From positions 1 to 32,195 of the forward strand of contig CAMBEK010000019.1 in NCBI GenBank assembly GCA_945865565.1: 32,195 nt of DNA, written 5' to 3'. The position numbers were made by a program, and so were the translations under genes. This document shows, piece after piece, positions 1 to 32,195 of the stretch; within the stretch, counting starts at the first letter, position 1, and every line of letters starts with the position of its first letter. This stretch comes from Pseudobacteriovorax antillogorgiicola. Its GTDB lineage: Bacteria > Bdellovibrionota_B > Oligoflexia > Oligoflexales > RGVZ01. The notes under the pieces were generated by a model. It worked only from the letters and a program-made list of their open reading frames with translations. It was not told where the DNA came from and ran no database searches.

Positions 1-3000
1 TCCCGTGCGTGCATCTTTCATAACGGTGCCCTCAACGCCGCCGCAGTAGTTGTCGGCAACGGACCATGTCGAAGAAGATGGAAAATTAGTGGGTGCGGGT
101 AGTCCGTAATAATCGTCGATCGTATCCCAGATGTCACCTGCGGTTGTGCTGCTACTAGCCGGAGCTGTCGTGTTGTTAAAGGAACCTGTACCTGAAAGCC
201 GAACTGCATTACGGCAATTCACTTTCAGTTTACCGGTGACACCACCAAAGACGCTGCCGGCGCGCAAGTCCCAGGCATTTGGCGGGGTCACCGCCGCGCC
301 GGCGTATGTGCCGGTCAGGCTCAAGTTCTCGAAAGCCACTGCAGTTTTAATGTTACCGGCCACGATATCGGCGTCGCCCGATCCTGTGCGGCGAATGCCG
401 CTTGAATCCCAGTACTCAAATGTCCCGGAGGATTTCGCCTGGGTCGCGAAATTAGTGAGATCGGTTTCATTGCTGCCCGTGGTGGCCGTGGTTGCGCCGT
501 TGTCGCTATAGCGCGGCAAAGGACTCGTTGCCGACGGGTAATTACCCGTTACACCGCCAATTCCAACGCCACGTTTGATGTTGCTGGCAAGGATCGTGGT
601 GAAGTCGGCGGATTTGTACGACGCCGTGGTGACGCAGCCCACAGCGCCGTTTGACGTACAGTCTGCCGGAGGATTGCAGGACTTTGTCCCGGTCTGTACG
701 GTCCCAGTGATGTCATAGTAACTTGTGCCGGCGCATACTTGCGAGGATGCCACGTTCGCAAATGGAGTTGCATCCACCGGGGCCCAATAAATCATATATG
801 CCGTGTTCCCGCCGGCAAGTGCCAGAGTCGTCGCGCCAATGGAAACTCCCGACGGCACGACGACGGATGCGGATGTGCTCGAGGCGACCGTCTTGGATGT
901 CACAGAGATCCCACCAACAGTGACCACCATGTCTTGGGCAAACCCTGTGCCGGTCAGCGTAACGGTGTCACCAGATTTGATGAATACTGGGCTACGCCCA
1001 GTCAGGGATGGGGTCGCGACGGTTAAGCTATAACCATTGTTCGTGGCATTGGTGGCGTTGCCCGCGCTGTCGGTGGCCGTCACGCAGACATACCAGGTTC
1101 CGGCGGCAAGAGATGTCAGTGCCTGCGGCGATGAACCTGGCGCGAAAGGTGGGACACCGTAAGTCTGATCTACGCCTGTGGAGCAGTCTGCTGAACTCGC
1201 CACCTTGAGCGCATACGTCACGGTATTTGCGTCGGTCGCGTCACTCCAAGTGACGGTCGGAGTCTGGTTGTTTGTTGGTGTCGCTGGGCCGGTGATGGTG
1301 AAGGCTGCGGGCGCGGTGGTGTCGATGGTGATTTCGAAACTTCCACTGGCGGACCAGTTGCCGGCATCGTCACGTTCCTGGACATAGAGGGTGTTGTCTC
1401 CGGCCGACAGGGCTGCGCCGGGCGTATAGCTGGCGGTCGTCGTGGTCGTTGCACCTGTTGAAAGGTCTGAGCTATCGAGCTTATAACGATAGCTTTCATT
1501 GCCGTCGCCGGCCGAAGTCCACGACCAAGTTGGTGTCGTGTCGTTAGTGGGCGTGGTTGCAGTAACCGTCGGTGCTGTCGGCGCGGTGGTGTCGATGACA
1601 AAACTATAACCATTGTTCGTGGCATTGGTGGTGTTGCCCGCGCTGTCGGTGGCCGCCACGCAAACATACCATGTTTCAGCGGCAAGGCTCGTCAGCACCT
1701 GTGGTGATGAACCTGGCGCGAAAGGCGGGACACCGTAAGTCTGATCTACGCCTGTGGAGCAGTCTGCTGAACTCGCCACCTTGAGCGCATACGTCACGGT
1801 ATTTGCGTCGGTCGCGTCACTCCAAGTGACGGTCGGAGTCTGGTTGTTTGTTGGTGTCGCTGGACCTGTGATGGCGAAGGCGGCGGGTGCTGTTGTGTCG
1901 ATGGTGATTTCGAAACTTCCGCTGGCGGACCAGTTACCGGCATCATCACGTTCTTGCACATATAATGTATGGACCGCCGCACTCAGCGTAGTGCTTGGGA
2001 CAAAACTCGTCGACGTCATGGTCGTTGCACCTGTTGAAAGGTCTGAGCTATCGAGCTTATAGCGGTAGCTCCCATTTCCGTCACCGGCCGAAGACCATGA
2101 CCAGGTGGGTGTCGTGTCGTTAGTGGGTGTGGTTGCAGTAACAGTCGGTGCTGTCGGCGCGGTCGTGTCGATGGTGATTTCGAAACTTCCGCTGGCGGAC
2201 CAGTTGCCGGCATCATCGCGTTCTTGCACATATAATGTATGAGCTGAGGCACTCAGGGCAGTGCCTGGGACAAAACTGGTCGATGTCGTGGTCGTTGCAC
2301 CTGTCGAAAAGTCTGAGCTGTCCAGTTTATAGCGGTAACTTCCATTTCCATCGCCGGCCGAAGTCCACGACCAAGTCGGTGTCGTGTCGTTAGTTGGTGT
2401 GGTTGCAGTAACCGTCGGTGCTGTCGGCGCGGTCGTGTCGATGGTGATTTCGAAACTTCCGCTCGCGGACCAGTTGCCGGCATCATCACGTTCTTGCACA
2501 TATAATGTATGAGCTGAGGCACTCAGGGCAGTGCCTGGGACAAAACTGGTCGATGTCGTGGTCGTCGCACCTGTCGAAAAGTCTGAGCTGTCCAGTTTAT
2601 AGCGGTAACTTCCATTTCCATCGCCGGCCGAAGTCCACGACCAAGTCGATGTCGTGTCGTTAGTCGGTGTGGTGCCAGTAACAGTCGGTGCCGTCGGCGC
2701 GGTTGTGTCTATGGTGATTGCAAAACTTCCACTCGCGGACCAGTTGCCGGCACCATCACGTTCTTGGACATATAACGTATGAGCCGTCGCACTCAGCGCA
2801 GTGCTTGGGACAAAACTCGTCGATGTCGTCGTCGTTGCACCTATTGAAAGGTCTGAGCTGTCGATTTTATAACGGTAACTTCCATTTCCGTCACCGGCCG
2901 AAGTCCACGACCAGGTTGGTGTCGTGTCGTTAGTGGGTGTGGTGCCAGTAACAGTCGGTGCTGTCGGCGCGGTGGTGTCGATGGTGATTTCGAAACTTCC

Positions 3001-6000
3001 ACTGGCGGACCAGTTGCCGGCATCGTCACGTTCTTGCACATATAATGTATGGGCTGCGGCACTTAGCGCAGTTCCCGGCGTGTAACTCGCCGATGTCGTG
3101 GTCGTTGCACCTGTTGAAAGGTCTGAGCTGTCGAACTTATAGCGGTAGCTCCCATTTCCATCGCCTGCCGAAGTCCATGACCAGGTGGGTGTGGTGTCGT
3201 TAGTGGGCGTGGTTGCAGTAACCGTCGGTGCTGTCGGCGCGGTCGTGTCGATGGTGATTGCAAAACTTCCACTGGCGGACCAGTTGCCGGCATCATCACG
3301 TTCTTGCACATATAATGTATGGGCTGCCGCACTCAGCGCAGTTCCCGGCGTGTAACTCGTCGATGTCGTGCTCGTTGCACCTGTTGAAAGGTCTGAGCTG
3401 TCGAGTTTATAACGGTAGCTCCCATTTCCATCGCCAGCCGGAGTCCACGACCAAGTTGGTGTCGTGTCGTTAGTGGGTGTGGCTGCAGTAACCGTCGGTG
3501 CTGTCGGCGCGGTCGTGTCGATGACAAAAATATAACCATTGTTCGTGGCATTGGCGGTGTTGCCCGCGCTGTCGGTGGCCGTCACGCAGGCATACCAGGT
3601 ACCGGCGGCAAGAGATGTCAGCGCCTGCGGCGATGAACCTGGTGCGAAAGGCGGGACACCGTAAGTCTGAACTACGCCTGTTGAGCAGTCCGCTGAACTC
3701 GCCACCATCGTGACATAGGTTACTGTATTGGTATCGACCGCGGATCCCCAAGTTACCATCGGAGTCTGGCTGTTGGTCGGTGTCGCCGGGCCGGTGATGG
3801 AGAAGGCTGCGGGTGCTGTCGTGTCGATGGTGATTGCGAAACTTCCGCTGGCGGACCAGTTACCGGCGTCATCACGCTCTTGCACATATAATGTATGGTC
3901 CGTCGCACTCAGCGCAGTTCCCGGCGTGTAACCCGCCGATGTCGTCGTCGTTGCACCTGTTGAAAGGTCTGAGCTATCGAGTTTATAGCGGTAGCTTCCA
4001 TTTCCGTCACCGGCCGGAGTCCACGACCAGGTTGGTGTCGTGTCGTTGGTCGGTGTGGTGCCAGTAACATTCGGTGCTGTCGGCGCGGTCGTGTCGATGG
4101 TGGTTGCAAAACTTCCACTGGCGGACCAGTTACCGGCATCGTCGCGTTCTTGCACATATAATGTATGGGCTGCGGCACTTAGCGCAGTTCCCGGTGTGTA
4201 ACTCGTCGATGTCGTGGTTGTTGCACCCGTTGAAAGGTCTGAGCTGTCCAGTTTATAGCGGTAGCTTCCATTTCCGTCACCGGCCGGGGTCCACGACCAT
4301 GTTGGTGTGGTGTCGTTAGTGGGCGTGGTTGCACTAACCGTCGGTGCTGTCGGCGCGGTCGTGTCGATGGTGATTGCAAAACTTCCACTCGCGGACCAGT
4401 TACCGGCATCATCACGTTCTTGCACATATAATGTATGGGATGCGGCACTCAGCGCAGTTCCCGGTGTGTAACTCGTCGATGTCGTGGTTGTTGCACCTGT
4501 TGAGAGATCTGAGCTGTCGAGCTTATAGCGGTAGCTCCCATTTCCATCGCCTGCCGAAGTCCATGACCAGGTGGGTGTGGTGTCGTTAGTGGGCGTGGTT
4601 GCAGTAACCGTTGGTGCTGTCGGCGCAGTTGTATCGATAGTGATTTCGAAACTTCCGCTGGCGGACCAGTTGCCGGCATCGTCACGTTCTTGCACATATA
4701 ATGTATGGGCCGTCTCACTCAGCGCAGTTCCCGGCGTGTAACTCGTTGACGTCGTGGTCGTTGCACCCGCTGAAAGGTCTGAGCTGTCCAGTTTATAGCG
4801 GTAGCTTCCATTTCCGTCACCGGCCGAAGACCACGACCAGGTTGGTGTCGTGTCGTTAGTGGGTGTGGTTGCAGTAACCGTCGGTGCTGTTGGCGCGGTC
4901 GTGTCGATGATGGTTGTGACAGCAGAGCTTGAATTGCTCTGATTCAACGCGGCATCAGTGGCTTTTGCCGTGATGGTATAAGTTCCGGCCGCAAGATTGC
5001 TTGACGGCGTATAAATCCATGCGCCGGATCCATCGGCTGCCGCAGTTCCAAGGGTTGATGCGCCATTATAAATGGTGACGGTTGAATTGGCCTCTGCCGT
5101 ACCGGCTACCGATGGCGTCAAGACGTTGGTGTAAATCGTGCTTCCGACACTCGTGTCGCCTAACACACTGGTGATGGCTGGTGCTGCAGGGGCAGTGACA
5201 TCAATGATAAAAGTCACGGCGACGCTGGCCACGCCTTGGTTGAGCGCTGCGTCAGAAGACGTTGCAGTAATGCTGTAATTCCCGGTGGCTAAATCAGATC
5301 CGGGCGTATACGTCCACGCACCCGAGCCGTCCGCTATGGCGGTGCCAATTGCAGATGACCCATTATAAATCGTGACGGTTGAGTTGGGCTCGGCCAATCC
5401 CTCAAGGATCGGTCTGAGGCTATTGGTGTAAGTTGTGCCGCTGACATTTGAATTACCCGATGCACTATTGATGCTTGGTGCAAGGGGGGCTGTTGTATCG
5501 ATGACTAACGTGACGTTTGTGCTGCTAGATCCCTGATTTAATGCCGCATCAGTGGCCTTGGCTGTGATTGTGTATGTGCCCGCGGTGAGTGAAGGCGTAA
5601 ATAACCAGACGCCCGATCCGTTGGCGGTCGTGGTGCCTATGGCCGATGCATTGTTATAAACCGTCACCGTGGAATTGGCCTCGGCCGTACCTGCAATGGC
5701 TGGCATTAGACCGCTGTATGAAATTGGGCCACTGACATTTGTATCGCCAGCAACGCTAGTGATGCCTGGGGCTGCGGGATCCGTGATGTCGATGTTTATG
5801 GCAAACGCGCCACTTTCGGACCAGTTTCCTGCAGCATCACCTTCCTGGACGAATAACGTATGAACCGCCTCGGACAGTGCATTGCTTGGGATAAAACTCG
5901 TCGATGTGGTGGTTGTCACACCAGATGAAAAGTCAGAGCTGTCCAGTTTATAACGGTAATTTAGGTTTCCCCCGCCGCCACCAGATATCCAAGTCCAAGT

Positions 6001-9000
6001 TGGGGTCGTGTCGTTTGTGGGCGTGGTGCCAGTAACAATCGGTGCTGTCGGCGCGGTCGTGTCGACTGTGATTTCAAAACTTCCGCTGGCAGACCAGTTG
6101 CCGGCCTCATCAAGTTCTTGCACGTATAATGTATGGGCCGTCGCACTCAGCGCGGTGCTTGGGATAAAACTGGCAGATGTCGTTGTTGTGGTGCCAGTGG
6201 AAAAGTCCGGGCTGTCGAGTTTATAGCGGTAGCTCCCATTTCCGTCACCGGCCGAAGTCCACGACCAAGTGGGTGTCGTGTCGTTAGTGGGTGTGGTTCC
6301 AGTAACAGTCGGTGCTGTCGGCGCGGTCGTGTCGATGGTGATTGCGAAACTTCCGCTGGCGGACCAGTTGCCGGCATCGTCACGTTCCTGCACATATAAA
6401 GTACGTGCTGAGGCACTCAATGCTGTGCCTGGGGTGTAACTCGTCGCTGTGGTGGTCGTTGCACCTGTTGAAAGGTCTGAACTGTCGAGTTTATAGCGGT
6501 AGCTCCCATTCCCATCGCCTGCCGAAATCCATGACCAGGTTGGTGCCGTGACGTTAGTTGGTGTGGTGCCAGAGACCGTCGGTGCTGTCGGCGCGGTCGT
6601 GTCGATGATGGTTATGACGGGGGTGTTTGCTGCACTTTGATTCAAGGCTGCATCGGTGGCCTTGGCCGTGATGGTGTAAGTTCCGGGTGCAAGATTACTT
6701 GACGGCGTATAAGTCCATGCGCCGGATCCATCAGCCGTTGCAGTTCCAAGAATTGACGCATCGTTATAAACCGTGACTGTTGAATTGGCCTCAGCCGTAC
6801 CTGAAATTGATGGCGTCAAAACATTTGTGTAAATGGTGCTGCTGACATTTGTGTCGCCCACCACGCTCGTGATGATTGGTGCTGACGGTGCAGTTGTGTC
6901 GATGACGACATTTACCGTGACGCCGGCAGGCCCTTGGTTCGATGCTGCGTCAGAAGCCTTCGCCGTGATGTTGTACGTCCCGGTGGCCAAGTCAGTGGCT
7001 GGCGTGTACGTCCATTCGCCCGATCCATCGGCTGTGGTTGTGCCAAGGACGGAAGTGCCTTGGTATATGGTGACGGTTGAAATGTTTTCTGCCGTACCAA
7101 CTATGACCGGCCTTAGTCCATTGGTGTAAATCATGCTACCGATACTCGTGTTGCCCGCGATGCTGGTGATGCTCGGTGCCGCAGGAGCCGTCGTGTCAAT
7201 GACCACGGTGACTGCCGTGCTGAATGAGCCGTGGTTTAAGGCCCCATCAGTGGCCTTTGCGGTGATGGTGTGTGTGCCCGCCGTAAGGACCGGCGTAAAC
7301 AACCATGCACCTGATGCGTTGGCGGTTGTCGTGCCGATGGCAGATGCGTTGTTATAAACCGTCACCGTGGAATTGGCCTCGGCCGCACCAGCGATCGGAG
7401 GCATCAACAAACTCGTGGATATAGCGCCGCCGATATTTGTGTTGCCCGCCACGCTGGAGATGTTTGGCGCCGCCGGTGCTGCCGTGTCGATGATTAAAGT
7501 TACCGATGCGCTTGCAGGGCTTTGAATCATCGCGTTATCAGTAGCCTTCGCCGTGATGGTGTAAGTGCCAGTGGTCAGATCGCTCGATGGTGTGTAAGTC
7601 CATTCGCCAGACCCATTTGCAGTGGTGGTTCCGAGGATTGAAGTCCCATTAAAAATGGTTACCTGAGAATTGCCTTCTGCCGTGCCCCTTATGGTTGGCA
7701 AGAGTCCGCTGGTGTAAATTGTGTTGCTGACATTTGTGTTTCCTGCGACCTCGATAACGGACGGTACGCCTGGCCCAGTCGTGTCGATGATCATCGTTGC
7801 GACGCTGCTGGGAGCGCTCGGGTTTGATGCGGCATCTATTGCTTTGGCGGTGATGGAATAGGTCCCCGTGGCAAGATCACTTGGCGGAGCGTAGTTCCAG
7901 CCGCCTGACCCGTCGGCCATCGTGGTGCCAAGAATCGAATTGCCGTTATAGACATTCACGGTCGAATTGTTTTCTGCGGTTCCGACGATCGCAGGCCTAA
8001 GTTCATTTGTGTAAATCGGGCTGCCGGTGTTTGTGTCACCTGCAATGCTGATGATGGCGGGTGCCGCAGGCGCTGTGGTGTCAATGGTCACCGGCACTGA
8101 AGTGCTGGACGCGCCCTGATTTAACGCGGCGTCAGTGGCGCTTGCAGTGAAAGTGTGGCTACCGGCTGCAAGGGATGCCGTAAACAGCCAGGCGCCAGAA
8201 GCGTTGGATGTAGCAGTTCCGAGGACTGACGAGGCATCGTAAACAGTTACGGTCGAATTAGCCTCTGCCGTCCCTGCAATCGCTGGCATCACAACGCTGG
8301 TGTAAATGGTTCCACCGACTCCCGTGTCTCCTGCGACACTGGTGATGCTCGGTGCGGCTGGCGCGATCGTGTCGTTGACGTAAGGGCCAATGCTCGTGCA
8401 GTTCGAGACGTTCGTCGTCGCATCTATGGCCATGGCATAAATTGTGGTTGTCGTATCGGCGGTCAGGCTGTTGGTGGTCATCGACCGCGCGCCATCTGCC
8501 GTGGCTATTGCCCCAGAAATTGCTGCACTGCAGGAACTGCTGTCATAAAGGGTGACCGTCGCGGTTTCGCTCAGGGTGAAGGCAACACTTGGAACGAGTG
8601 AGGTTCCGGGGGAAGCAGTCGAAACGCTCGGGGCGCTGATCAGAGGTGGAGTGACGTCGTTGATGTAGTTGCCGATGAGTGTGCATGCCGATGTGTTGGC
8701 TGCAGGATCACGAGCCGTCGCGTAGATCGTCGTGGTCGAATTGGCCGTCAAGGGGTTGGTTGCCATGGATTGACCACCGATTGGCATGGCGATAGCTTCG
8801 GATATTAACGTGCTACAGGAACTGCTGTTGTGAAGGGTTACGGTTGCAGCTTCGCTCAGGGTAAACGCAACGTTTGGAACGAAAGATTTGCCGGGTGATG
8901 TCGTGGAAATGCTGACTGAGCTAAGGGTGGGCGACGTTGTGTCTTTATTCCAGGTCAGAGGAACAACGGTTTCCGGAGCCTGCCAATTTCCTTCAACGTC

Positions 9001-15983: not shown

Positions 15984-16706
15984 ATGAACGGATTCATGAA
16001 GCGTTTAATGAACAGTTTTGTATTTTTCTTGGCCTCGGGACTTGCTTTAGCGTCGGTGAAATCCTTTGCCGTCTCGGCATATCCTGAGGCTGAAAAATTC
16101 TCCGGCCGACAACTCCGTACGATTGAACTCACCAGTTCTGATGGCAGCCGTTTTACCCTCGACAGGAATTCCGGCAAGCCAGTGGTTTTGATTCCGGTTT
16201 TTACCAGTTGTCCGGTGACTTGCCCGATGATCCTGAAGGATTTTCAGGCGTCATGGCGCGAGGCCCTGCCTGCGATTTCAAAATCTGGCGCAAAGGTTGT
16301 TGTGGTCAGTTTTGACCCGGCAGACACTCGCGCCTCATTCAAAAACATGATCACGCGTCAGAAATTGCCACGGGATTGGATTTACGCCGTCGCCTCGCCT
16401 GGAAAAAACTTCAAGGCATTTGAATCCCTGCTGGCCGACCTGGATTTCCGATATTTTAAGTTGACGGGACAGAGTGGGGGCTTTGCTCATCCGGCCGGAG
16501 CCTATATCTTTGATGGTAAGGGCACGGTTCGGCGGTTTCTCGCCCAGGCGGAGTTCACGAGGGAAGACATAGTCGATGCAGTCAACGGACCTGGCAACAT
16601 ATCCGGCAGCACAACTGGCAGCACAACTGGAAATGAATCCGTTGGTGTCGGAAGTCCCGCAAGGCCTTCCCCCGCAGGCGTTGCAAAACATCTGGAGCAC
16701 CGCTGA
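15984..16706 (+). CDS. SCO1/SenC-family copper/thiol protein
   Basis: 240 residues with an N-terminal signal sequence or anchor (FVFFLASGLALASVKSFA), then a thioredoxin-like fold. VFTSCPVTCPM holds the Cx3C copper/redox pair and GGFAHPAGAYIFD holds the third ligand histidine. These are the defining features of SCO1/SenC, which deliver copper to the CuA centre of cytochrome c oxidase or act in periplasmic thiol redox. No oxidase gene is adjacent. The start is ATG 15984, 6 nt after GAGGG; a TTG at 15981 is less likely. The last 27 residues (GNISGSTTGSTTGNES...) are low complexity, overlap the next gene by 131 bp and are probably not part of the fold. Confidence 0.9.
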   Translation: MNGFMKRLMNSFVFFLASGLALASVKSFAVSAYPEAEKFSGRQLRTIELTSSDGSRFTLDRNSGKPVVLIPVFTSCPVTCPMILKDFQASWREALPAISKSGAKVVVVSFDPADTRASFKNMITRQKLPRDWIYAVASPGKNFKAFESLLADLDFRYFKLTGQSGGFAHPAGAYIFDGKGTVRRFLAQAEFTREDIVDAVNGPGNISGSTTGSTTGNESVGVGSPARPSPAGVAKHLEHR

Positions 16707-18525
16707 ATCCTGGGACCAGATGACTTGGATGTGGGACTGGGACCACATGATCTCGCCAGCCCGGGTTTTGCGTCAGTATCTTTTTGAACATGGCACCGTC
16801 CCCTTTTGGAACTTGTACCTCTGTGGTGGGCAGTTCGAGCTTCAAAACCCGCAGAGCTTTACGTTCACCTGGCCTTCACTTCTTTATTATTTAATCCATC
16901 CGGCTGCAGCCATCATGGTGCTTTGGGCCCTGCTGACCGCAGCCGGGACGTGGGCCACGGCAAGGCTTCTGCAATACGCAGGCACGAGGCACTGGGTTTC
17001 CTGGACTTGCGCCGTTGCCTTCACTTTTTCAGGATATTTTGGCGCGCACTTCAATCAAGGTCACGCGACCTTCAGTTTTTTTCACATGGTGCCGTTGCTT
17101 TGCTGGGCTGTGACGCGCGAGTGGCATCGTCATATGGAATCAAGGCGTCCCAGGTTGATTGTCCCGTGGCTGTTTCTGCTGACTTTTTTGTTGTTTTCCG
17201 CCCCTGCCATCCAGGCGATGGTCTATTCATTTCCTGCATTTCTGATTTTGACGCTCCTTTTGATCTGGCCCGTCGCAACTGGTTTCGCCAGTGGCCTTGC
17301 GGTTTCACTGACGCTCGGGGTGCTGGCCGCTTCATACAAGTTTTTGCCGGTGTTGTTTCAATCGTTCTCGCGCCATCGCGAAGACATATTTACGGAACGA
17401 TACGGGCCTGAGATTTTGCTCAAGACCATGTTCACGTTTGTTTCCCAGCCCGCCCGGATGTGGCAGGACTATCATTTTCCTGAACGGTTTTTTGGATGGT
17501 GGGAGTACGCCGCTTTTATCAGCCCCGTGCTGATGATCTTGGCCTTGCTGATGCCTGTGGTCTACTTTGCATCGCGGACTTTGAAACGCATAAGGTCCCA
17601 CGAAAAATCGACTCCTGATATACGACCCACGACGATCTTCCGGCACCGGTTGCTGATTGCCGGCGTGTTGATGATGCTTGCGGGAATGGTCCTTTGTCTG
17701 GGGAACGGATTCTGGTTGGACGTCACCAAAAGTGGATCATTTGGCAGCGCACTGAGCGGACCGGTCGCGCGCCTTTTGCAATCGATTCGCGTTTTCCCGC
17801 GGTTTCAGTTTCTTTCCTTGTTTGGGGCAACCATTTGCGCTGGCATTGGTTTGGAATACCTTTTGTCCCGCCGCGCTTTTTTAAATGCCACGCCCACGAG
17901 GGCGATGACCATGCGTGTGATGATCATTCTGCTCGTGGCCGGTCCGTCGTTGGTTCAGTCGGCCGTGATGATCCATTCAATCAATGCCATCCCGGATCGA
18001 ATCATAGTGGAACGCTTTGGATTAAAAGAGTCCTTGGACGTCATGATCCAGGATAAAAGTTTGTTTCTTTCAAACAGGGTTCTTTTGATGCCCGGGATCC
18101 TTTCGGCGCAGGACATGATGGTCCGGCGGGGTGCGGTCGTGAGTGAATGTTACGATCCTTTTTTTCCCGTAAAGCCGGACTTTCAACGAAGGATCGCGAG
18201 TGTTCTTCGCCCAGCCACCAGCCCCGCCGCGGCACGCCTGGAAAATGTCACGACGCGTTCCTTCGACCTCGTTGTCCCGCCTGCTCTGACCCAAAACCTG
18301 CTTTTGAACCTGCCTCTTGTCATGGAGGCCAAGGTGACGCCGGAGCCGTTTCTTGGGCGCGGTGGAATGGAGTTTGACCGCGCTGCAGTTGCCGGGCGCG
18401 CCATCCACGTGGAGTTTCCTCTCGATGACGCCGTATTCGGTGGGTTGGTTTCGGTGATTGCCATCATCACAGCGGCCGGCATGTGGTTGAAAGAAAGAGA
18501 AAAAGAAAAGAAAAAAAACTCCTGA
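16576..18525 (+). CDS. Polytopic membrane protein, GT-C/YfhO-like
   Basis: Up to 649 residues with roughly ten hydrophobic segments. The segment MWDWDHMISPARVLRQYLFE...VPFWNLYLCGG followed by NPQSFTFTWPSLLYYLI is typical of the first periplasmic loop of GT-C glycosyltransferase-like and YfhO-like membrane proteins, where Asp residues sit near a lipid-linked sugar donor. The C-terminal 150 residues look soluble, and the end is a Lys/Glu tail after a last helix. Function is probably sugar transfer to an envelope component; substrate unknown. An in-frame stop at 16570 limits the N-terminus, and starts at 16576, 16633 and 16720 are possible. The first helix usually found before the Asp loop is absent, so an N-terminal truncation is possible. 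Confidence 0.75.
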   Translation: MQSTDLATYPAAQLAAQLEMNPLVSEVPQGLPPQALQNIWSTAESWDQMTWMWDWDHMISPARVLRQYLFEHGTVPFWNLYLCGGQFELQNPQSFTFTWPSLLYYLIHPAAAIMVLWALLTAAGTWATARLLQYAGTRHWVSWTCAVAFTFSGYFGAHFNQGHATFSFFHMVPLLCWAVTREWHRHMESRRPRLIVPWLFLLTFLLFSAPAIQAMVYSFPAFLILTLLLIWPVATGFASGLAVSLTLGVLAASYKFLPVLFQSFSRHREDIFTERYGPEILLKTMFTFVSQPARMWQDYHFPERFFGWWEYAAFISPVLMILALLMPVVYFASRTLKRIRSHEKSTPDIRPTTIFRHRLLIAGVLMMLAGMVLCLGNGFWLDVTKSGSFGSALSGPVARLLQSIRVFPRFQFLSLFGATICAGIGLEYLLSRRAFLNATPTRAMTMRVMIILLVAGPSLVQSAVMIHSINAIPDRIIVERFGLKESLDVMIQDKSLFLSNRVLLMPGILSAQDMMVRRGAVVSECYDPFFPVKPDFQRRIASVLRPATSPAAARLENVTTRSFDLVVPPALTQNLLLNLPLVMEAKVTPEPFLGRGGMEFDRAAVAGRAIHVEFPLDDAVFGGLVSVIAIITAAGMWLKEREKEKKKNS

Positions 18526-18547: not shown

Positions 18548-18666
18548 CGCACCCCGTCACCCTGACCCGCACTCCGTCATCCTGAGCCGCACTCCGTCAT
18601 CCTGAGCCTAGTGCGAAGGATCCTTTCTTCCGCATCGGGGAAAGGACTCTTCGGCCTCAGAACGAC
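18548..18666. repeat. Interspersed palindromic element, copy 1, with 20-bp tandem units
   Basis: Two identical 20-bp units CGCACTCCGTCATCCTGAGC (18568-18587, 18588-18607) follow a degenerate one (18548-18567). The last continues into TGCGAAGGATCCTTTCTTC. An imperfect hairpin forms from 18596-18606 with 18656-18666 (9 of 11 pairs) and from 18615-18627 with 18640-18652 (12 of 13 pairs including G-T). The core GTCATCCTGAGC...GAAGGATCC is a type of intergenic palindrome seen in many bacterial genomes. It fills the 306-bp gap between two convergent genes and may serve as a bidirectional terminator. Confidence 0.85.
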
Positions 18667-18831
18667 GATGTTCCCGTCGCTTTGTATGGACGTTGACCGT
18701 CCTTCCCTGGGGAAGCGGGCTCGGAGACTGCGTCTACCTCCGGCTCTGAATCTGCCAGGGCCTCCTTCGCTGGAGTTCGTCGTCACTTTCCTGACTAAGC
18801 GCAATGTTTTCTTTGCAAAAGGTATTAAGCA

Positions 18832-21800
18832 CTAAGGTGCCAGGCCACCATCAGAGATTTTCCAGCCCTTCGATAATTGAAGGCTCTCACGTGCCGCTTT
18901 TGCTGCCAAAGAGTATTGGATCAATGTGGCGTCTAATTGAACCTTCTCTTTGACGTCCTGCTTCGACCATCCGATAAGCAAAGCGTCATAGTTAGCGATC
19001 GAGAGCTCGGATCCAATAAGCATATTCCCCATCGTAGTTACGCTCGAGATGTTCCATGTTCCGATTGGCTGGTTGAACTTAGTGGCATTCTTGAACATCC
19101 ATCTCATGTCGGTGACAGCTGAGGTATTCCATGTTCCGATTGGCTGGTTGAACGCAGTGGCACCTTCGAACATCGATCCCATGTTGGTGACAGCTGAGGT
19201 ATTCCATGTTCCGATGGGCTGGTTGAACCGAGCGGCGAAATAGAACATGTGATCCATGTTGGTTACCGCGCTCATATTCCATTTGTCCATACCTGGAACG
19301 CTTTTAATCGAACTACAAAATAGGAATGCGGCGGACATGTTGCTCGTCCCGGTCAAGTCGGGGGTATCAGTTGCGGTAATAATCAAGCGATAAGCATTAT
19401 TAAAATAACCGCCTGTATTCCCGAAATTTAATGGTCCCCACGCCGAAATCTCGATCAACTTGAATGCATCGTTGTTGGTCTTATAACTAAATGACCAGCC
19501 AGTGATGTCACCAATAATGGTGACCGTGTATGTCCCAGTGCGGGCATATGTATGCGTTCGAGCCGGATCGTCTGCGGCCCTGATTAAATTTGATTTTCCG
19601 TCGCCCCAGAGGACGATGAAGTTGTATGTCCCAGACGGTACCAATGGCAAGCTGATCTGTTTTGTCGAAGAGCCGCTGTACCTTTCGTAGCTTGCATCTG
19701 TAATCCACCGTGAGACAAACGGAAGCGCGTTTTTAACGGGCACGGTTTGTACCTCCGGGCTGTAAGGGCCTTTTCCTTTTGAATTTACGGCCGCTACCCG
19801 GAACATGTATTTGTCTGCGTTAGTGAGTTCAGTGAGCAAGACTCCCGTGGATGGGGAAATACCGTCGCTAAAGGTTTGCCAACTTTCATCTGGTGACCCG
19901 GCGTTCTTGAACTCAATAATATAATCGATGATGTCGCCGCCTCCGGAACTCAAAGGCGGTGGCCAAACTAGCGAAACAGTCTTGTTCGATACGGCGGCAA
20001 AAATATTCATCGGTTGGCTGGGCTCGGGTGCCATCACGGTGAAGGTGTAATCATTGTTGGAAGCGATGGTGACGTTTCCGGCCACATCTGTCGCGCTCAA
20101 GCAAACGAACCACGTACCAGGGTCAAGCTTAGTCAAAGTTTGTTGTGTTGATCTGAGGCCAGCATATGTCTGGACAACGTTGGTGGCACAATTTGACGAA
20201 CGTGCGATCTCGAGTCTATACGCAACAGAGGTAGTATCCCAGGCTTGACCCCACGTGACTATCGGTTGCGCGCTAGCAACGTTCTCCATTGGGCCTGTGA
20301 CTTCAAAAAAGTTCGGCTTGATCGTGTCAATGTTGATCGAGAACGCAGAAGTAGACGACCAGTTGCCGACATCGTCGCGCTCTTGGACGTATAGAACATG
20401 ATCACCGTCAGCTAGTCTTCCCTCGGTTGTATAGCTGGTAGACGTAGTGGTGGTTCCGCCGGTGAGATCGTTATTATTAAGCCTGTAGCGGTACGTACCG
20501 TTTCCAGCGCCCCCAGACTTCCATTCCCAAGTCGGGGTGGAGTTGTTGGTCGCGTTCTTGCCAGTGGATACGGGAGCCTTCGGCGGAGTAGTATCGATGG
20601 TGATTACATGGCTACTACCCCTCGACCAGTTACCGGCGGCGTCGCGTTGTTCAACGTAAAGAGTATGGTCGCCATCCGTCAGGTCGCTTCCTGGAGTGTA
20701 AGTGCCATAGGAAGTTTCGTTGCGCAGGTAGCCATAAAAGCCGTCCCAGTTATCGTTATCTAATCGATAACGATAGCTGGTGTACCCGCCCGACCCAGGC
20801 GTCCAGGTCCAAGTTGGGGTCTTGTCGCCGGTTGGGGTCGTGCCGGAGATGCTTGGGGGATTTGGTGGAAAAGTGTCAATCATGATCGAGGAACTGGCGG
20901 TGCTGGACCAGTTGCCGGCGGAGTCGCGCTCTTGCACATACAGCGTGTGGATTCCATCTGGAAGCAGACTATCTGGGGTAAATCGGGTCGACTCAGTCTC
21001 TGTTCCACCAGAGGAATTGCTGTTATCCAGGCGATAGCGATACCTGCCCTCGCCGTCGCCCCCGCGGTCTGTCTGCCAAGTCCAAGTCGGGGTGTTATCG
21101 TTAGTGGGCGACAAATCCGAGAAGAGAACTATCGGAGGTTTGGGTGGAGTGAGATCAAATTGAATCATGCAAGTACCGGGATCTGACCAGTTACCAGCGT
21201 TGTCGAGCTCTTGGACGTACAGTGTGGTCGGAACAGTTTCTATAAAAATTCCCGGTGTATGGCTGGTAGAGGTCGTATAATCAGTAACGAAGGCGGTAAT
21301 ATTCTCCCTCCGATAACGGAACTTCCCGTTGCCACCGTTACCGCCAGATATCCACGTCCAGGTAGGGGCCTTCTCGTTAGTCAGACGGGGACAGGTTACT
21401 TTTGGCGCATTTGGTGGAACACTATCGACATTGATCGCGAAACTACCGGCGCTTGACCAAGTCCCGGTGAAATTGCGCTCTTGCACGTAAAGTGTGTTTG
21501 TTCCTTCCGGTAGTGCACTTATTGGTGCAAAGCTGGTTTCCTTTGTCACGGTGCCACCAGAGAGATCTTCGTTATTCAAGCGATAACGGTAAGTGCCATT
21601 ACCGCCACCATTTGAATTCCACCTCCAGGGTTGCCAACGGTTGTTAGTTGGCGTTGTGCTTATGACTTTGGGGGCTATTGGTGCCTTGGTCTCTATGATG
21701 ATTTCGAAGCTGCCGCTATTGGACCATTTACCGAAGCCATCGCGTTCCTGAACATAGAGTGTGTAACGGCCATCAGGAAGTGCGTCATTTGGCGTGAAGC

Positions 21801-23889
21801 TGGTATCCGACGTGGTGGTTCCACCAGAAAGGTCGCTGTTATTGAGCCGATAGCGATAGGCACCGGCGCCCCTGACACCAGACGTCCACTCCCATGTCGG
21901 CCGCATGTTGCTGGTCGGACTTGTGCCGCTCACCCTCGGCGCGGTTGGAGGCGGCGAACATGTAACGGCCACCGTGATGTCGGTTGATGAAAACGTACCA
22001 GATGCCTTGCTTGTTCCGCATGAGTAGCCATCTGGCTGGTTCGAGACAATAAGGTCACTATAAGAACTGCCGGCCGGAAATCCCTCACCCAACGCCTGTG
22101 CCAGTCCGTTACCCATCGATTTTGTGATGGACGACGATCTACCATCCATGCTCGCTGATACCTTTATGGACAGCATTGAGATGATATTTGGCAGGCCACT
22201 GATATCGAGGTTGAGCTTGTAGTGAATCGGGACGTCAGCGTCCCCGGTTGTCGGTCCTATCCGTGAGTCGATGGACTTGGCCAGGGTTCGAAATTCTTGT
22301 GGCGTGAGAGCCCGGTCCAACATGAACCACGCGTGATATGTCGCGTTATCGTGTTCAGTTCTATCCAGGCTGGCACCAATGACAAACGTCGAAAGGCCGG
22401 AGAGTATGTTCCGGGATTCATCGTGGGTTAATCTAAGAGTCGTTCCGTTTTCCGTGGCTACTGGGTCATCAAAAACCGCCAATTGGCCGTTTGCGAATAA
22501 GTTGACTCGGATGTCACCCGAAGGGTCCTCGGCCCCGGAACGCCTGACCATGGAAATTCCGACAAAGGATTTTACGAAATTAATCGAAACTAGCCTGCCA
22601 TCGTTGGCAAAGCTCCGTGATGCACAGACGTCATCGCGTCCATGGAGCTTCAAACACAAGGCCCAGCGCTGGTTATTGTTCGAGTAGGTTTTCATCTGCC
22701 AGTAAAGGCCGTTTACTCTCTGCTCGCTATCTGACGCGGCCAATCTACCGAAACCGAGCACGGGCAACATGGGCGGCCTGCTACCCGAATTTGCCGTGGT
22801 ACCGAGTTCTCTCGTGTGCATGAACCCAAAAGAAATGCCCTCACTTGTAACCGGTGGATTTTCACCCCTGAATCTCCCTGCGATTTCCTGTTTTACGGAA
22901 TCGCCAAGTTCGATGGTCACCCCCGAAGCACTTGCAACGGATGGTGACGAAATCCTCAAGCCGCGATGGGCACATGCGCCCTCGTAGGTCCTTACGATGG
23001 TGGAGTTCTCAATGTAGGTGCGTGTAAGGTTCCCGGCTCGTGAATCACTCAGGATCAACGAACTATAATCCCTTCGTGAATTATTTTCCGCAACGTCTGG
23101 CTGTATGACGCCAAGCGGTAGCGCGGCGTCGAAGTTGATCTGACTCCAGATTCTGCCGGTTTCACTGGTAAGTCCAGCAATCCCGGTCAGACATGATGTC
23201 TGATTAGTTGGGTTCTCTGGGACTTCATCAAAAACGACTTCCACGCTGTCACTTTGCTGCAAAGTCGAAAGCTGCCCGGAGGGAAACGGTTTGCGGACAA
23301 CGAAGTCGCGACGCGCAGTAGCCTGCTGTCCAGAACTGGTTTTGCAGGTGTTTATGACAGCTGAAACCTGCCGTGGCGTGCCGCCTTCAGCTGGTATCGT
23401 CTCGACGGTCCGCATACGAAGTGCAGGATCGGGTTCGCAGGACCATGTCACTGCCGGTCCTTTGGCGGTTGGCGGTGTTTCTGTAATCTCGACGCGGAAT
23501 TTATCAAGGTCGATGGCACAGTTTTCGTAATCCGCTGCTGCTGGAGCAAAAACGTTTGTGAAATTTGCCGTCAAGCCGGTAATGTCAAACGCCTGACGAG
23601 TTCCGGCTTTCGATGTTCCCGGGCACGAAACCGTGTAACTCACCCTCGTCGCCTCGAACTTGCTCTCTGAAGATGCGCCTCCCGGAGCGATGAGGTTGAC
23701 AGAACTGAGAATGGTTTTTGTTGGCCGCCCGTCCATTCCTGATCGAGTGTTGTTGGGCACGGAAATACGCTGGGGTCCGCAATGAGACATCAACAGGGCA
23801 AGTCCCACCAGGGACACATTAAGTCCGGTTGACCGGGCTCTAAGGAGAATTGACTGGGTCGTGGCATAGATGATTTTCAATTTGGACAT
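18832..23889 (-). CDS. Modular surface lipoprotein: lectin-like, Ig/FN3 repeats, BspA/DUF285 C-terminus
   Basis: 1685 residues. The signal peptide ends LALLMSHC-GP (about residue 38), a lipobox-like site with unusual His at -1. GAGG lies 7 nt before the ATG. Residues about 290-545 look like a concanavalin/LamG-type lectin fold (ending HAWFMLDRALTPQEFRTLAKS). About 555-645 is a domain ending QPDGYSCGTSKASGTF. Six A-type modules (about 650-1185) are followed by one D-like unit, one FN3 domain (about 1285-1385) and a PKD-like segment with VLWGDGKSN. The C-terminus carries DUF285 repeats (FNQPIGTWNTSAVTNM) and the typical end NYDALLIGWS...GWKISDGG. It is probably exported and adhesive. The A and D modules are those of the giant protein at 1-9432, so the two genes are related mosaics. 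Confidence 0.92.
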   Translation of the reverse strand: MSKLKIIYATTQSILLRARSTGLNVSLVGLALLMSHCGPQRISVPNNTRSGMDGRPTKTILSSVNLIAPGGASSESKFEATRVSYTVSCPGTSKAGTRQAFDITGLTANFTNVFAPAAADYENCAIDLDKFRVEITETPPTAKGPAVTWSCEPDPALRMRTVETIPAEGGTPRQVSAVINTCKTSSGQQATARRDFVVRKPFPSGQLSTLQQSDSVEVVFDEVPENPTNQTSCLTGIAGLTSETGRIWSQINFDAALPLGVIQPDVAENNSRRDYSSLILSDSRAGNLTRTYIENSTIVRTYEGACAHRGLRISSPSVASASGVTIELGDSVKQEIAGRFRGENPPVTSEGISFGFMHTRELGTTANSGSRPPMLPVLGFGRLAASDSEQRVNGLYWQMKTYSNNNQRWALCLKLHGRDDVCASRSFANDGRLVSINFVKSFVGISMVRRSGAEDPSGDIRVNLFANGQLAVFDDPVATENGTTLRLTHDESRNILSGLSTFVIGASLDRTEHDNATYHAWFMLDRALTPQEFRTLAKSIDSRIGPTTGDADVPIHYKLNLDISGLPNIISMLSIKVSASMDGRSSSITKSMGNGLAQALGEGFPAGSSYSDLIVSNQPDGYSCGTSKASGTFSSTDITVAVTCSPPPTAPRVSGTSPTSNMRPTWEWTSGVRGAGAYRYRLNNSDLSGGTTTSDTSFTPNDALPDGRYTLYVQERDGFGKWSNSGSFEIIIETKAPIAPKVISTTPTNNRWQPWRWNSNGGGNGTYRYRLNNEDLSGGTVTKETSFAPISALPEGTNTLYVQERNFTGTWSSAGSFAINVDSVPPNAPKVTCPRLTNEKAPTWTWISGGNGGNGKFRYRRENITAFVTDYTTSTSHTPGIFIETVPTTLYVQELDNAGNWSDPGTCMIQFDLTPPKPPIVLFSDLSPTNDNTPTWTWQTDRGGDGEGRYRYRLDNSNSSGGTETESTRFTPDSLLPDGIHTLYVQERDSAGNWSSTASSSIMIDTFPPNPPSISGTTPTGDKTPTWTWTPGSGGYTSYRYRLDNDNWDGFYGYLRNETSYGTYTPGSDLTDGDHTLYVEQRDAAGNWSRGSSHVITIDTTPPKAPVSTGKNATNNSTPTWEWKSGGAGNGTYRYRLNNNDLTGGTTTTSTSYTTEGRLADGDHVLYVQERDDVGNWSSTSAFSINIDTIKPNFFEVTGPMENVASAQPIVTWGQAWDTTSVAYRLEIARSSNCATNVVQTYAGLRSTQQTLTKLDPGTWFVCLSATDVAGNVTIASNNDYTFTVMAPEPSQPMNIFAAVSNKTVSLVWPPPLSSGGGDIIDYIIEFKNAGSPDESWQTFSDGISPSTGVLLTELTNADKYMFRVAAVNSKGKGPYSPEVQTVPVKNALPFVSRWITDASYERYSGSSTKQISLPLVPSGTYNFIVLWGDGKSNLIRAADDPARTHTYARTGTYTVTIIGDITGWSFSYKTNNDAFKLIEISAWGPLNFGNTGGYFNNAYRLIITATDTPDLTGTSNMSAAFLFCSSIKSVPGMDKWNMSAVTNMDHMFYFAARFNQPIGTWNTSAVTNMGSMFEGATAFNQPIGTWNTSAVTDMRWMFKNATKFNQPIGTWNISSVTTMGNMLIGSELSIANYDALLIGWSKQDVKEKVQLDATLIQYSLAAKAARESLQLSKGWKISDGGLAP
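19050..19290 (-). repeat. DUF285/BspA repeats, 75-bp period
   Basis: Three consecutive 25-residue units read FNQPIGTWNTSAVTNMxxMFxxA, with partial units on both sides. In DNA the block TTCCATGTTCCGATTGGCTG (plus view) recurs at 75-bp spacing near 19051, 19126 and 19201. This is the BspA-like/DUF285 surface repeat known from mycoplasmas, Bacteroidetes and others. Confidence 0.92.
20320..21945 (-). repeat. Six A-type modules, diverged, about 270 bp each
   Basis: Units begin with PRVSGTSPTSNMRPTWEW, PKVISTTPTNNRWQPW, PKVTCPRLTNEKAPTW, PIVLFSDLSPTNDNTPTW, PSISGTTPTGDKTPTW and PVSTGKNATNNSTPTW. Each continues to YRYRLxNxDLSGGT and LYVQERDxxGNWS. They match the A modules of the giant lipoprotein in protein sequence but differ widely from one another in DNA. 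Boundaries are approximate. Confidence 0.88.
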
Positions 23890-24021
23890 TATCGCACCTC
23901 GCCCCCGCCAGAATCATTCGCACTAGACCGACGAAAGAGGTTCGGCGGCCTGTTTTGGAACATTAGTTTTTTCTTTAGTCGGGAAATTGGCGTTTCTCAG
24001 GATCTTGGCTCCCCAACTTAA

Positions 24022-24228
24022 GTTACTGGATTCGCTGCTGAAAAATTCCTGCACCTACTGCGTATCGATCCGGAAAAAGATAAAAATTGGATCTCTGTTG
24101 TAGTGAGTCAGATTTTTTCCAGCCAGAAATCCCCCGACGAGATTTTGCGACACTGGGATCAGTATGTTTTTAAGTGCTCATGCGACTACGGAGGCAACGC
24201 GTCGTTCATCGGCACTTGCGTTCATTGA
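24022..24228 (+). pseudogene. Possible remnant of a degraded gene
   Basis: A 68-codon open stretch without an ATG reads VTGFAAEKFLHLLRIDPEKD, then KNWISVVVSQIFSSQKSPDE and ILRHWDQYVF, ending CSCDYGGNASFIGTCVH and TGA. The amino acid mix looks protein-like. The same frame continues upstream of a single TAA (24019) as FSREIGVSQDLGSPT. This fits the C-terminal remnant of a decayed gene, but chance cannot be excluded and I do not recognise the family. Confidence 0.3.
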
Positions 24229-24303
24229 GATCAAGTCATCAGCAAATTCCTCAAGCGAATTGCACTTGTATGAATGCGATCCACAACAGCGCCTAGCCGT
24301 GCC

Positions 24304-24368
24304 AGGAACTCGTCATCCTGAGCCGCAGCCCGTCATCCTGAGCCTATTGCGAAGGATCCTTTCTTCGC
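24304..24368. repeat. Interspersed palindromic element, copy 2
   Basis: Two 20-bp units ending CGTCATCCTGAGC (24304-24323, 24324-24343) are followed by TGCGAAGGATCCTTTCTTC, matching the copy at 18548-18666 almost base for base and in the same orientation. GCGAAG (24349-24354) and CTTCGC (24363-24368) form a short perfect stem. It sits 11 bp beyond the stop of the small lipoprotein gene at 24380. Confidence 0.85.
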
Positions 24369-24379
24369 GCCTCAGCGCA

Positions 24380-24937
24380 TTAATTAAAACGAATGGAAAT
24401 CGTCTGTGATTCGTTCAAGGCCCGGGACGTGACCCTCAGGGTATCGTTGACCCCTCGGAAGGACCCTGGAACAAGGATGATCAATTCTGCCGAACCTTGT
24501 CCTGACAAAAACTTTTCGAGATCAGCGTCATATCCAATCGTATGCGTATACCCATCCGTCCCGACCAGCGTTCCGCTTAAATCGCTTCGTGAATAAGAGG
24601 AAAGGGTTGCCGGGAGTTTGACCCGGACGTGTACGTAATAATCTTGTCCCTCCATCGGATTTGGCGGATTTGCAAAAACAGTGAAGCTGCCTTGGACAAT
24701 GGCCCCGGGTGGTAGCGGCGCTGGTGGCGCCACTGATGTTTGTAAGGTGTCGACGATTGCGTTCGATATCTGACGCTGCCGGGATGCCGGTGCTGGATTA
24801 TTGCCTGAAAAGGAATTCGATGGTCCACAGCTTACCAGTGATCCAATGCCGGCGACGGTGATGATGCCCAGCGCGGTGATTGCATTTAGGCGCTTGATTA
24901 AAAAGGCACCAATGCGATGCAGGCCAAAAGGGTTCAT
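24380..24937 (-). CDS. Small secreted lipoprotein, 185 aa, function unknown
   Basis: The N-terminus has a basic head, a hydrophobic stretch (ITALGIITVAGIGSLVS) and a lipobox SLVSC-GP, so a lipidated outer-membrane protein is likely. A Pro/Ala-rich linker (about residues 45-78) leads to a beta-rich domain with PNPMEGQDYYVHVRVKLP and SDLSGTLVGTDGYTHTIGYD. This pattern looks like a small Ig-like or immunoglobulin-fold domain describing a fluid-phase or surface beta sandwich, but I do not recognise the family. GGAG lies 8 nt before the ATG. It stands alone between the surface gene and tRNA-Ala. Confidence 0.8.
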   Translation of the reverse strand: MNPFGLHRIGAFLIKRLNAITALGIITVAGIGSLVSCGPSNSFSGNNPAPASRQRQISNAIVDTLQTSVAPPAPLPPGAIVQGSFTVFANPPNPMEGQDYYVHVRVKLPATLSSYSRSDLSGTLVGTDGYTHTIGYDADLEKFLSGQGSAELIILVPGSFRGVNDTLRVTSRALNESQTISIRFN

Positions 24938-25109: not shown

Positions 25110-25185
25110 TGGTGGAGGATAGGAGAGTTGAACTCCTGACCCCTAGAATGCAAATCTAGTGCTCTACCAACTGAGCTAATCCCCC
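25110..25185 (-). tRNA. tRNA-Ala (anticodon UGC)
   Basis: Read on the minus strand, GGGGGAT starts the acceptor stem and pairs with ATCCTCC, followed by discriminator A and an encoded CCA. The D-arm is TAGCTCAGTTGGTAGAGC. The anticodon stem CTAGA/TCTAG encloses loop TTTGCAT with anticodon TGC (plus positions 25150-25152). The T-arm contains GTTCAACTC. All arms pair, and the 76-nt length including CCA is standard. Confidence 0.97.
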
Positions 25186-31574: not shown

Positions 31575-32195
31575 ATGGTCGCGGGTTCGAAAATTCGAAT
31601 TTTTTTCGGTTTGCTTTATTTTTCAGCCTTAATGGCTTGTCAGGGCGAGGCGCCCAAATCTTTAGTACGTCCGTCGAGCTCGCCGTTGTCTTCTTTTAAT
31701 CCCTACGGCGCCAGTACCCTTAATTCGACTATCCCGACCTATACACCAGTTCCGATGGGCACCCTCGATCCTTCGCTTGCTAACGCAGATGCTTATCGCC
31801 AGCAGCAGCTTGCTCAACAGCGGCAGCAATCGCAGACGGCCGGGCTGTTGACTTTTCTCAGTTGCTCCACTCGTTCCGGAGGCGGTGGTGGCGCAGGCGG
31901 CGCTAGCGCAGCAGGGCTCGGGAATTTGCTTGGTTGCGCAACGCAAGGGCTGATGACTTCGATGGGCGGCGGTCTTTCGGGAGGCCTATCTGGCGGTTAT
32001 GGTGGTTATGGTGGTTATGGTTCAACGAGTGGCCTTGGCGGCTTCAACAGTTACTCGACTGGCGGCGGATACGGCGCAACGGGTGGCCTTGGCGGCTACA
32101 ACAACTACTCGACCGGCGGCTTCAACAACTTCACAACTGGCGGCGGATACGGCGCGACGGGTTATGGCACCGGCGGCGGATTCGGCGCAACGGGT
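31575..32195 (+). CDS. Gly/Tyr-rich repeat lipoprotein (partial, C-terminus beyond window)
   Basis: ATG 31575 follows GGAGGAA at 5 nt; the frame is open to the edge (207 codons). The signal peptide ends LYFSALMAC-QG, a good lipobox. The mature protein has a Ser/Pro/Tyr-rich linker, a Gln-rich segment (YRQQQLAQQRQQSQ), a CSTRSGGGGG segment, then a region of GYGGYGGYG and TGGGYGATG/TGGFNNFTTGG repeats very rich in Gly with Tyr, Phe and Asn. Such composition is seen in fibrous, adhesive or low-complexity surface proteins. No enzyme domain is visible. The gene is preceded by a 156-bp gap and appears to be its own unit. Confidence 0.85.
   Translation, partial: MVAGSKIRIFFGLLYFSALMACQGEAPKSLVRPSSSPLSSFNPYGASTLNSTIPTYTPVPMGTLDPSLANADAYRQQQLAQQRQQSQTAGLLTFLSCSTRSGGGGGAGGASAAGLGNLLGCATQGLMTSMGGGLSGGLSGGYGGYGGYGSTSGLGGFNSYSTGGGYGATGGLGGYNNYSTGGFNNFTTGGGYGATGYGTGGGFGATG

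Follow-up and report, generated by a model that had tools for sequence, protein, structure and literature searches.

Does a pair of near-identical palindromes on either side of a gene delimit a removable cassette, or does it reflect the spread of a repeat that happens to share the same intergenic space? This question is raised by a 32,195-nt stretch of Pseudobacteriovorax antillogorgiicola DNA (hereafter the window), in which a gene encoding a 1685-aa predicted surface lipoprotein is flanked by two near-identical palindromic elements in the same orientation (18555–18667 and 24311–24359). In line with what had been noticed from the sequence alone, positions 18575–18630 and 24311–24366 are 95% identical over 56 nt on the same strand (repeat family D20), and no further forward copy with up to two mismatches was found anywhere else in the window. 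From this arrangement, the sequence-only reading had proposed that recombination between the direct copies could delete or exchange the intervening 5.7 kb. In the following, G000 designates the genome of the window and G001, G002 and G003 three other genomes of the genus.

The elements and the history of the locus

The locus comprises the following features:
16576–18525, plus strand: left neighbour, a 649-aa membrane protein, whose gene converges on the 185-aa gene at the pre-insertion site of G003
18555–18594, plus strand: left element, two 20-bp head units CGTCACCCTGACCCGCACTC and CGTCATCCTGAGCCGCACTC (family D20)
18595–18623, plus strand: left element, forward hairpin unit CGTCATCCTGAGCCTAGTGCGAAGGATCC (CGTC head, ATCCT/AGGAT stem), whose core recurs genome-wide
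18644–18667, minus strand: left element, inverted degenerate arm GGACTCTTCGGCCTCAGAACGACG, giving a head-to-head dimer (weak hairpin, z −1.4)
18657–18755, minus strand: relic (by residue match) of an HNH-family gene's 3' end; in G001, the N-terminal 230 aa of this gene form an open ORF at the corresponding site
18756–24275, no strand: G000-specific segment (by sequence comparison), G001 having an unrelated 0.83 kb at the same place
18832–23889, minus strand: 1685-aa predicted surface lipoprotein with Ig-like Big_13 repeats, fn3 and C-terminal DUF285/PARCEL repeats, absent from G001–G003
24311–24330, plus strand: right element, 20-bp head unit CGTCATCCTGAGCCGCAGCC
24331–24359, plus strand: right element, hairpin unit CGTCATCCTGAGCCTATTGCGAAGGATCC
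24360–24379, no strand: right element, truncated right half, ending beside the stop of the 185-aa gene
24380–24937, minus strand: right neighbour, a 185-aa protein, whose stop in G003 is ~1 bp from that of the left neighbour

The left element carries three forward CGTC heads (18555, 18575 and 18595) and one inverted degenerate head (18655–18667), and it therefore represents a complete head-to-head arm pair. The right element, with forward heads at 24311 and 24331, has a single hairpin core and a truncated right half. Inside the elements, the number of 20-bp head units is the sole clear difference between G000 and G001, the latter having one unit more at the orthologous place of the left element, which is a short-range array change.

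No match to the 1685-aa protein was found in G001, G002 or G003, and the gene is thus not fixed among the relatives. G001 is the closest of them, its 649-aa neighbour protein being 96% identical, and it is collinear with G000 on the left up to window position 18755 and on the right again from 24276. Both elements are kept in G001, where the 0.83 kb between them encodes the N-terminal part of an HNH-family protein; this truncated ORF takes its stop codon from the left element, and full-length relatives with the HNH motif were found elsewhere. The relic present in G000 is 92% identical to residues 194–230 of this protein (E 1.4e-14, frame 18660–18770). The breakpoints are located inward of the two elements, 88 bp past the left one and 35 bp before the right one, which argues against a crossover between the elements as the cause of the altered content of the locus. 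In G003, neither element nor gene is present and the 649-aa and 185-aa genes lie tail to tail, ~1 bp apart.

The likely history, as read from these alignments, is that an empty junction between two convergent genes received the elements together with an HNH-type gene, most of which would later have been replaced in G000 by the 5.5-kb segment carrying the 1685-aa gene, with no crossover at the elements; for the origin of the insert and for this ordering of steps, a single close relative is the basis. It is also possible, although we hold this tentatively, that the segment is mobile by itself, or that it was exchanged by natural transformation or homologous recombination in the common outer flanks. 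The 5.5 kb specific to G000 between collinear flanks would fit such an event, yet neither a transposase nor a terminal repeat or target duplication was found at its ends (18755/24276), and the composition of the segment is near that of its flanks (GC 0.517 vs 0.53), without a clear signal of horizontal origin for the 1685-aa gene. An exchange of this kind would be compatible with the explanation preferred here, in which the elements are copies of a dispersed repeat and the 1685-aa gene is a passenger.

HNH genes were considered as drivers of the elements and rejected, since G002 has several copies of the HNH family but 0 elements, and no elements were found near those HNH loci that were checked. 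The 16 matches of this family in G002, several of which are at contig ends, are up to 93% identical, and their number in an element-free genome suggests a separate spread of the HNH genes and the elements. Other clusters of elements also vary in content. At L076 (3237–4616, G000:C9), a 459-aa HNH-domain ORF is bracketed by elements, which are also present at its G001 counterpart (L209) with ~1.9 kb less DNA between the flanks; here, too, the DNA enclosed by a cluster has changed. At L011 (L193/L194) and L059 (L199), the element flanks are much closer together in G000 than at the orthologous sites, where ~1.8 and 2.1 kb (G001) and ~2.6 kb (G003) separate them, corresponding to other variable inserts.

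Copy number, placement and hairpin form of the repeat family

When counted genome-wide, the 12-mer core GTCATCCTGAGC of the element was found in 143 exact copies (76 forward and 67 reverse in 2.50 Mb), as compared to 0 for the reversed control, and the elements therefore belong to a dispersed repeat family rather than forming a pair peculiar to the 1685-aa gene. A degenerate version of the hairpin core gave 99 matches in G000 (control 0) and 101 in G001, as compared to 0 in G002 and 2 in G003. The same core occurs in some other genera (38 copies in G008, 16 in G024, 14 in G040 and 10 in G042) and is nearly absent elsewhere.

On contigs C1–C9 (1.75 Mb), used for the context statistics, the copies form 38 clusters, one per ~46 kb. 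Gaps of 6 kb or less separate neighbouring clusters in 3 of 29 cases, while ~12% are expected by chance, and the bracketing of a 5-kb gene is therefore unremarkable. The flanking elements, in which a possible cassette boundary had been suspected, rather mark a busy intergenic slot. Clusters are found between convergent ORFs in 21/33 cases, as compared to 13/67 for other ORF pairs at the same loci (Fisher p=3e-5), and between same-direction ORFs in 8/33. The flanks of 18 G000 clusters could be located in relatives, and at seven G000 element loci they adjoin in G002 or G003, where the junctions preceding insertion are thus preserved cleanly or almost so. A MITE of a classical insertion sequence would share terminal inverted repeats with a DDE-transposase IS and have a target-site duplication; at ~73% identity, such a duplication is not definable, and some clusters contain IS1182-like remnants. 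In this lineage, the repeats have recently expanded into the spaces between convergent genes.

Within two clusters, L064 and L065 (G000:C3 and C4), fragments resembling the C-terminus of IS1182 transposases lie between the element arms, the one at L064 with a weak NCBIfam match (E 0.02), and such clusters may thus be insertion hot spots. Another palindrome, GACTTTCCGCGGAAAGTC, recurs beside degenerate arms in element clusters of G000 and G001 (L007, L064, L076, L195 and L205).

The hairpin core has the form ATYCT-GA-(2–4 bp inner stem)-loop-GA-AGRAT. While the inner stem varies, 81/94 cores have a GNA or GNNA loop. Folded as DNA, the two elements of the window are weak by themselves (z −1.4 and −0.5) as compared to CGTC REPs with a perfect stem from other places (z −4.5 to −4.9). 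The CGTC-tagged REP superfamily, which includes dRS3 of Neisseria and RPE-4 and RPE-6 of Rickettsia, has been defined by Di Nocera, De Gregorio and Rocco (2013; PMC3733652). With these repeats, the elements share an unpaired head at one end (CGTC, or TGTC/CCTC; here at 18555, 18575, 18595, 24311 and 24331), complementary A-T pairs at stem positions 1–2 that start the palindrome (CGTC-AT-CCT...AGG-AT-CC), a short tail and head-to-head dimers, forward heads being followed by reverse heads in most clusters (PMC3733652). They also share the intergenic location between convergent or same-direction ORFs and a patchy distribution over phyla (PMC3733652). By contrast, the families CGTC-1 to CGTC-4 have a stem of 8–9 bp and a loop of 4–5 nt, while the stem is here interrupted, with five outer pairs, a GA/GA mismatch pair and 2–4 bp of inner stem closed by the GNA/GNNA loop, mostly 3–4 nt (PMC3733652); the elements are therefore outside all four described families. 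Clusters are also common among the elements, unlike described CGTC REPs. In the explanation preferred here, both elements of the window belong to a hairpin repeat of the CGTC-tagged REP type that is dispersed and non-autonomous. Many bacteria have CGTC REPs, Neisseria, Rickettsia, rhizobia and sphingomonads among them. In the survey that defined these repeats, they are said to "apparently lack a dedicated transposase", and their mode of spread has been left open (PMC3733652).

GIY-YIG nuclease genes between CGTC and TGTC hairpins

One of the G000 clusters (C1:18617–19371) contains, between convergent arms, a 99-aa GIY-YIG gene, which is encoded only once in this genome, the arms being elsewhere without it. 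Its locus is orthologous in G001 (90% over 1988 bp), and the presence of the gene at one place in both genomes indicates that the gene itself is not hopping. In relatives, close GIY-YIG homologs are adjacent to hairpins of the form CGTCAT-stem-ATC with other stems, while UPF0213-like matches mostly are not.

When named genomes were searched with an alignment of GIY-YIG proteins, 55 loci from many phyla were obtained, 43 of which have a GTCAT hairpin within 400 bp; at the other 12, none was found within this distance by the detector used. Hairpin density falls from 2.94 per kb near the GIY-YIG gene to 0.26 per kb at larger distance. Upstream, the nearest hairpin is forward in 29/36 loci (29:7), and downstream it is reverse in 35/42 (35:7), so that the heads point away from the gene, like those of terminal inverted repeats. 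The stem, which differs between organisms, usually matches to the left and right of the gene, the same 6-nt stem being present on both sides in 25/35 loci vs 2.2 expected. When the letters of the motif were permuted, GTCAT itself gave 114 near matches, the next permutation 25 and the median permutation 2. GIY-YIG genes are thus associated with CGTC/TGTC hairpins in many phyla.

The same detector found CGTC/TGTC hairpins at 12/16 GIY-YIG loci fetched from a plasmid collection, including several rhizobia and a record from Neisseria gonorrhoeae that contains dRS3 repeats and is apparently a chromosome deposited under the heading of plasmids. While the published survey of CGTC REPs reported no associated transposase (PMC3733652), a GIY-YIG nuclease gene is found here, and also beside dRS3. 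In Azospirillum lipoferum 4B, the hairpin-flanked GIY-YIG gene lies between sufB and sufC. Novosphingobium and Sphingobium were scored negative by the detector; by eye, they have CGTC-headed inverted repeats without the AT step. On plasmid p1 of Planktothrix agardhii (L221), a GIY-YIG gene with TGTC-type hairpins is located inside a defence cluster, between an MmeI-type restriction gene and DISARM drmA.

The hairpins beside the gene also have copies elsewhere in the same genomes. The stem pattern GTCATTCCYGCNNNRGCRGGAATC occurs 3–22 times in six genomes whose gene carries that stem and is absent (0 copies) from 8/10 others, and these repeats are often arranged as inverted pairs 40–80 bp apart. 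Among 56 relatives, the median excess of the CGTC motif is 92 with a close GIY-YIG homolog vs 11 without (p=3e-4). There are two exceptions, G024 with its 16 elements and no GIY-YIG match, and G002 with an excess of the degenerate motif and no close homolog. Cross-phylum pairs sharing a stem have a protein identity of 55.2% vs 51.5%, with 0/2000 shuffles as high, although this link between stem sharing and protein similarity is only suggestive, as the shuffle ignores relatedness. In the open-access literature searched, preprints being outside its scope, no paper containing both "GIY-YIG" and "extragenic palindromic" was found, nor any relevant paper on the exact core or on GIY-YIG with palindromic repeats.

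The nuclease has the GIY-YIG domain (PF01541, E 5e-15) with the catalytic Tyr, Arg and Glu. Y8, Y19, G21, R29, H33 and E66 are conserved in at least 76/79 aligned rows, and among the catalytic residues R29 is found in 77/79, H33 in 79/79 and E66 in 79/79. The hairpin-associated group is marked by a C-terminal NPxWxDL motif. UPF0213/YhbQ (PDB 1zg2 and 1ywl), which is likewise a single GIY-YIG domain of ~95 aa, is the best PDB sequence match but lacks this motif; 11/12 UPF0213-like relatives are unflanked by hairpins, and in a tree of only 93 columns with similarity-chosen outgroup rows they fall across a branch of length 1.89 (support 100/99). A structure model built with 30 sequences (pLDDT 90) replaced one built without an alignment (pLDDT 42). 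It is closest to UPF0213, the best Foldseek match, and to the nuclease domains of SLX1 (VIA-align Z 7.7, rmsd 3.1, 98 residues, 16% identity; unrelated rows start at 3.7); with Z below 8, the latter match supports the GIY-YIG fold alone. SLX1 is a structure-specific nuclease which cuts branched DNA, and the protein considered here corresponds to its catalytic domain only, with no RING domain and no SLX4 partner seen. On the basis of the model, the nuclease may cut branched or hairpin DNA.

A candidate mover of CGTC REPs and competing explanations

GTAG REPs are thought to be mobilised by RAYT (TnpA-REP), a Y1 HUH transposase. The GTAG REP/REPIN and RAYT system resembles the present one in its dispersed hairpins arranged as inverted pairs, in the presence of these hairpins on either side of a single, stable nuclease gene and in its non-autonomous spread. 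They differ in the head, which is CGTC in the elements and not GTAG, and in the enzyme, here encoded by a GIY-YIG gene instead of a Y1 HUH transposase gene. RAYT itself was rejected as the mover, with 0 matches to PF01797 in G000 (a genome ~90% complete).

The best explanation overall, which we regard as reasonably probable, is that the two elements are copies of a CGTC-type REP, that a GIY-YIG nuclease acts on the arms of these repeats and that the 1685-aa gene is a passenger. The CGTC arms are probably recognised and cut by the small, structure-specific nuclease encoded between two of them, which would mobilise CGTC REPs in the manner of RAYT with GTAG REPs. From the matching hairpins around the gene, we infer both recognition and mobilisation, and we think it fairly likely that the nuclease recognises its own hairpin and helps copies spread, host repair finishing the reaction. 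To our knowledge, GIY-YIG enzymes are not known as transposases, so that strand transfer would need host functions; no transposition was observed. The balance tips slightly towards a broader reading, in which the ~95-aa GIY-YIG nucleases with a C-terminal NPxWxDL would be dedicated to the mobilisation of CGTC REPs and co-evolve with them in all Bacteria, dRS3 of Neisseria included, and would form, as part of this same reading, a second REP-plus-nuclease system with an enzyme unrelated to RAYT. The GIY-YIG nuclease is the first strong candidate mover for this widespread REP family. With matching hairpins around the nuclease gene in many phyla, the question of how CGTC REPs spread becomes directly testable, and many small unannotated genes labelled "GIY-YIG nuclease family" or "excinuclease ABC subunit C" would, if this is true, gain a likely role.

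The main rival to mobilisation is homing, or hitch-hiking, in which a selfish GIY-YIG endonuclease gene inserts into existing head-to-head CGTC REP dimers as its target sites while the repeats spread otherwise. A gene inserted in the loop of such a dimer would yield an identical layout, the GIY-YIG enzymes include the homing endonuclease I-TevI, and G024 has repeats without the gene. We nevertheless consider homing unlikely, given that the gene occupies orthologous positions in G000 and G001, where the repeats have many copies, that genomes with a close homolog are richer in CGTC motifs, and that repeats with the gene-side stem are multi-copy in the same genomes.

It is still less probable that the elements are immobile bidirectional terminators or mRNA 3'-end hairpins selected between convergent genes. 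Their location between convergent ORFs and their hairpin fold with GNA/GNNA loops would agree with such a function, but the hairpin cores showed no terminator signal in the form of a T-run, the contrast between ~100 copies in two sister genomes and 0–2 in two congeners, with empty sites, points to spread, and the hairpins flanking GIY-YIG genes would be left unexplained. Very improbable, finally, is the removable cassette: the gene is variable, as this proposal implied, being absent in three congeners, and the differing head-unit number indicates that short-range recombination or slippage between units occurs, but no excision via the elements is apparent, as G001 retains both around a different 0.83-kb filler, the breakpoints are inward of the elements and not at them, and none of the relatives compared (G001–G003) has the empty site with one element copy that it predicted, G003 having neither.

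Preferring a dispersed CGTC-type REP with the 1685-aa gene as passenger, we also note other features of the window. On the minus strand, positions 958–7890 contain an open frame of 3144 codons with 14 copies of a 270-nt repeat (61–96% identical), which encode Ig-like domains; the 1685-aa protein has related ones, and paralogs of the open frame are present on contigs C11 and C14. An Rfam search of the window returned only a tRNA, and ARAGORN and Rfam agree on a tRNA-Ala at 25110–25185, while a tRNA-Thr predicted by ARAGORN at 24685–24781, inside the 185-aa ORF, is without Rfam support and probably false. Short tandem Gly-rich coding repeats occupy 32037–32195 and run off the end of the window.
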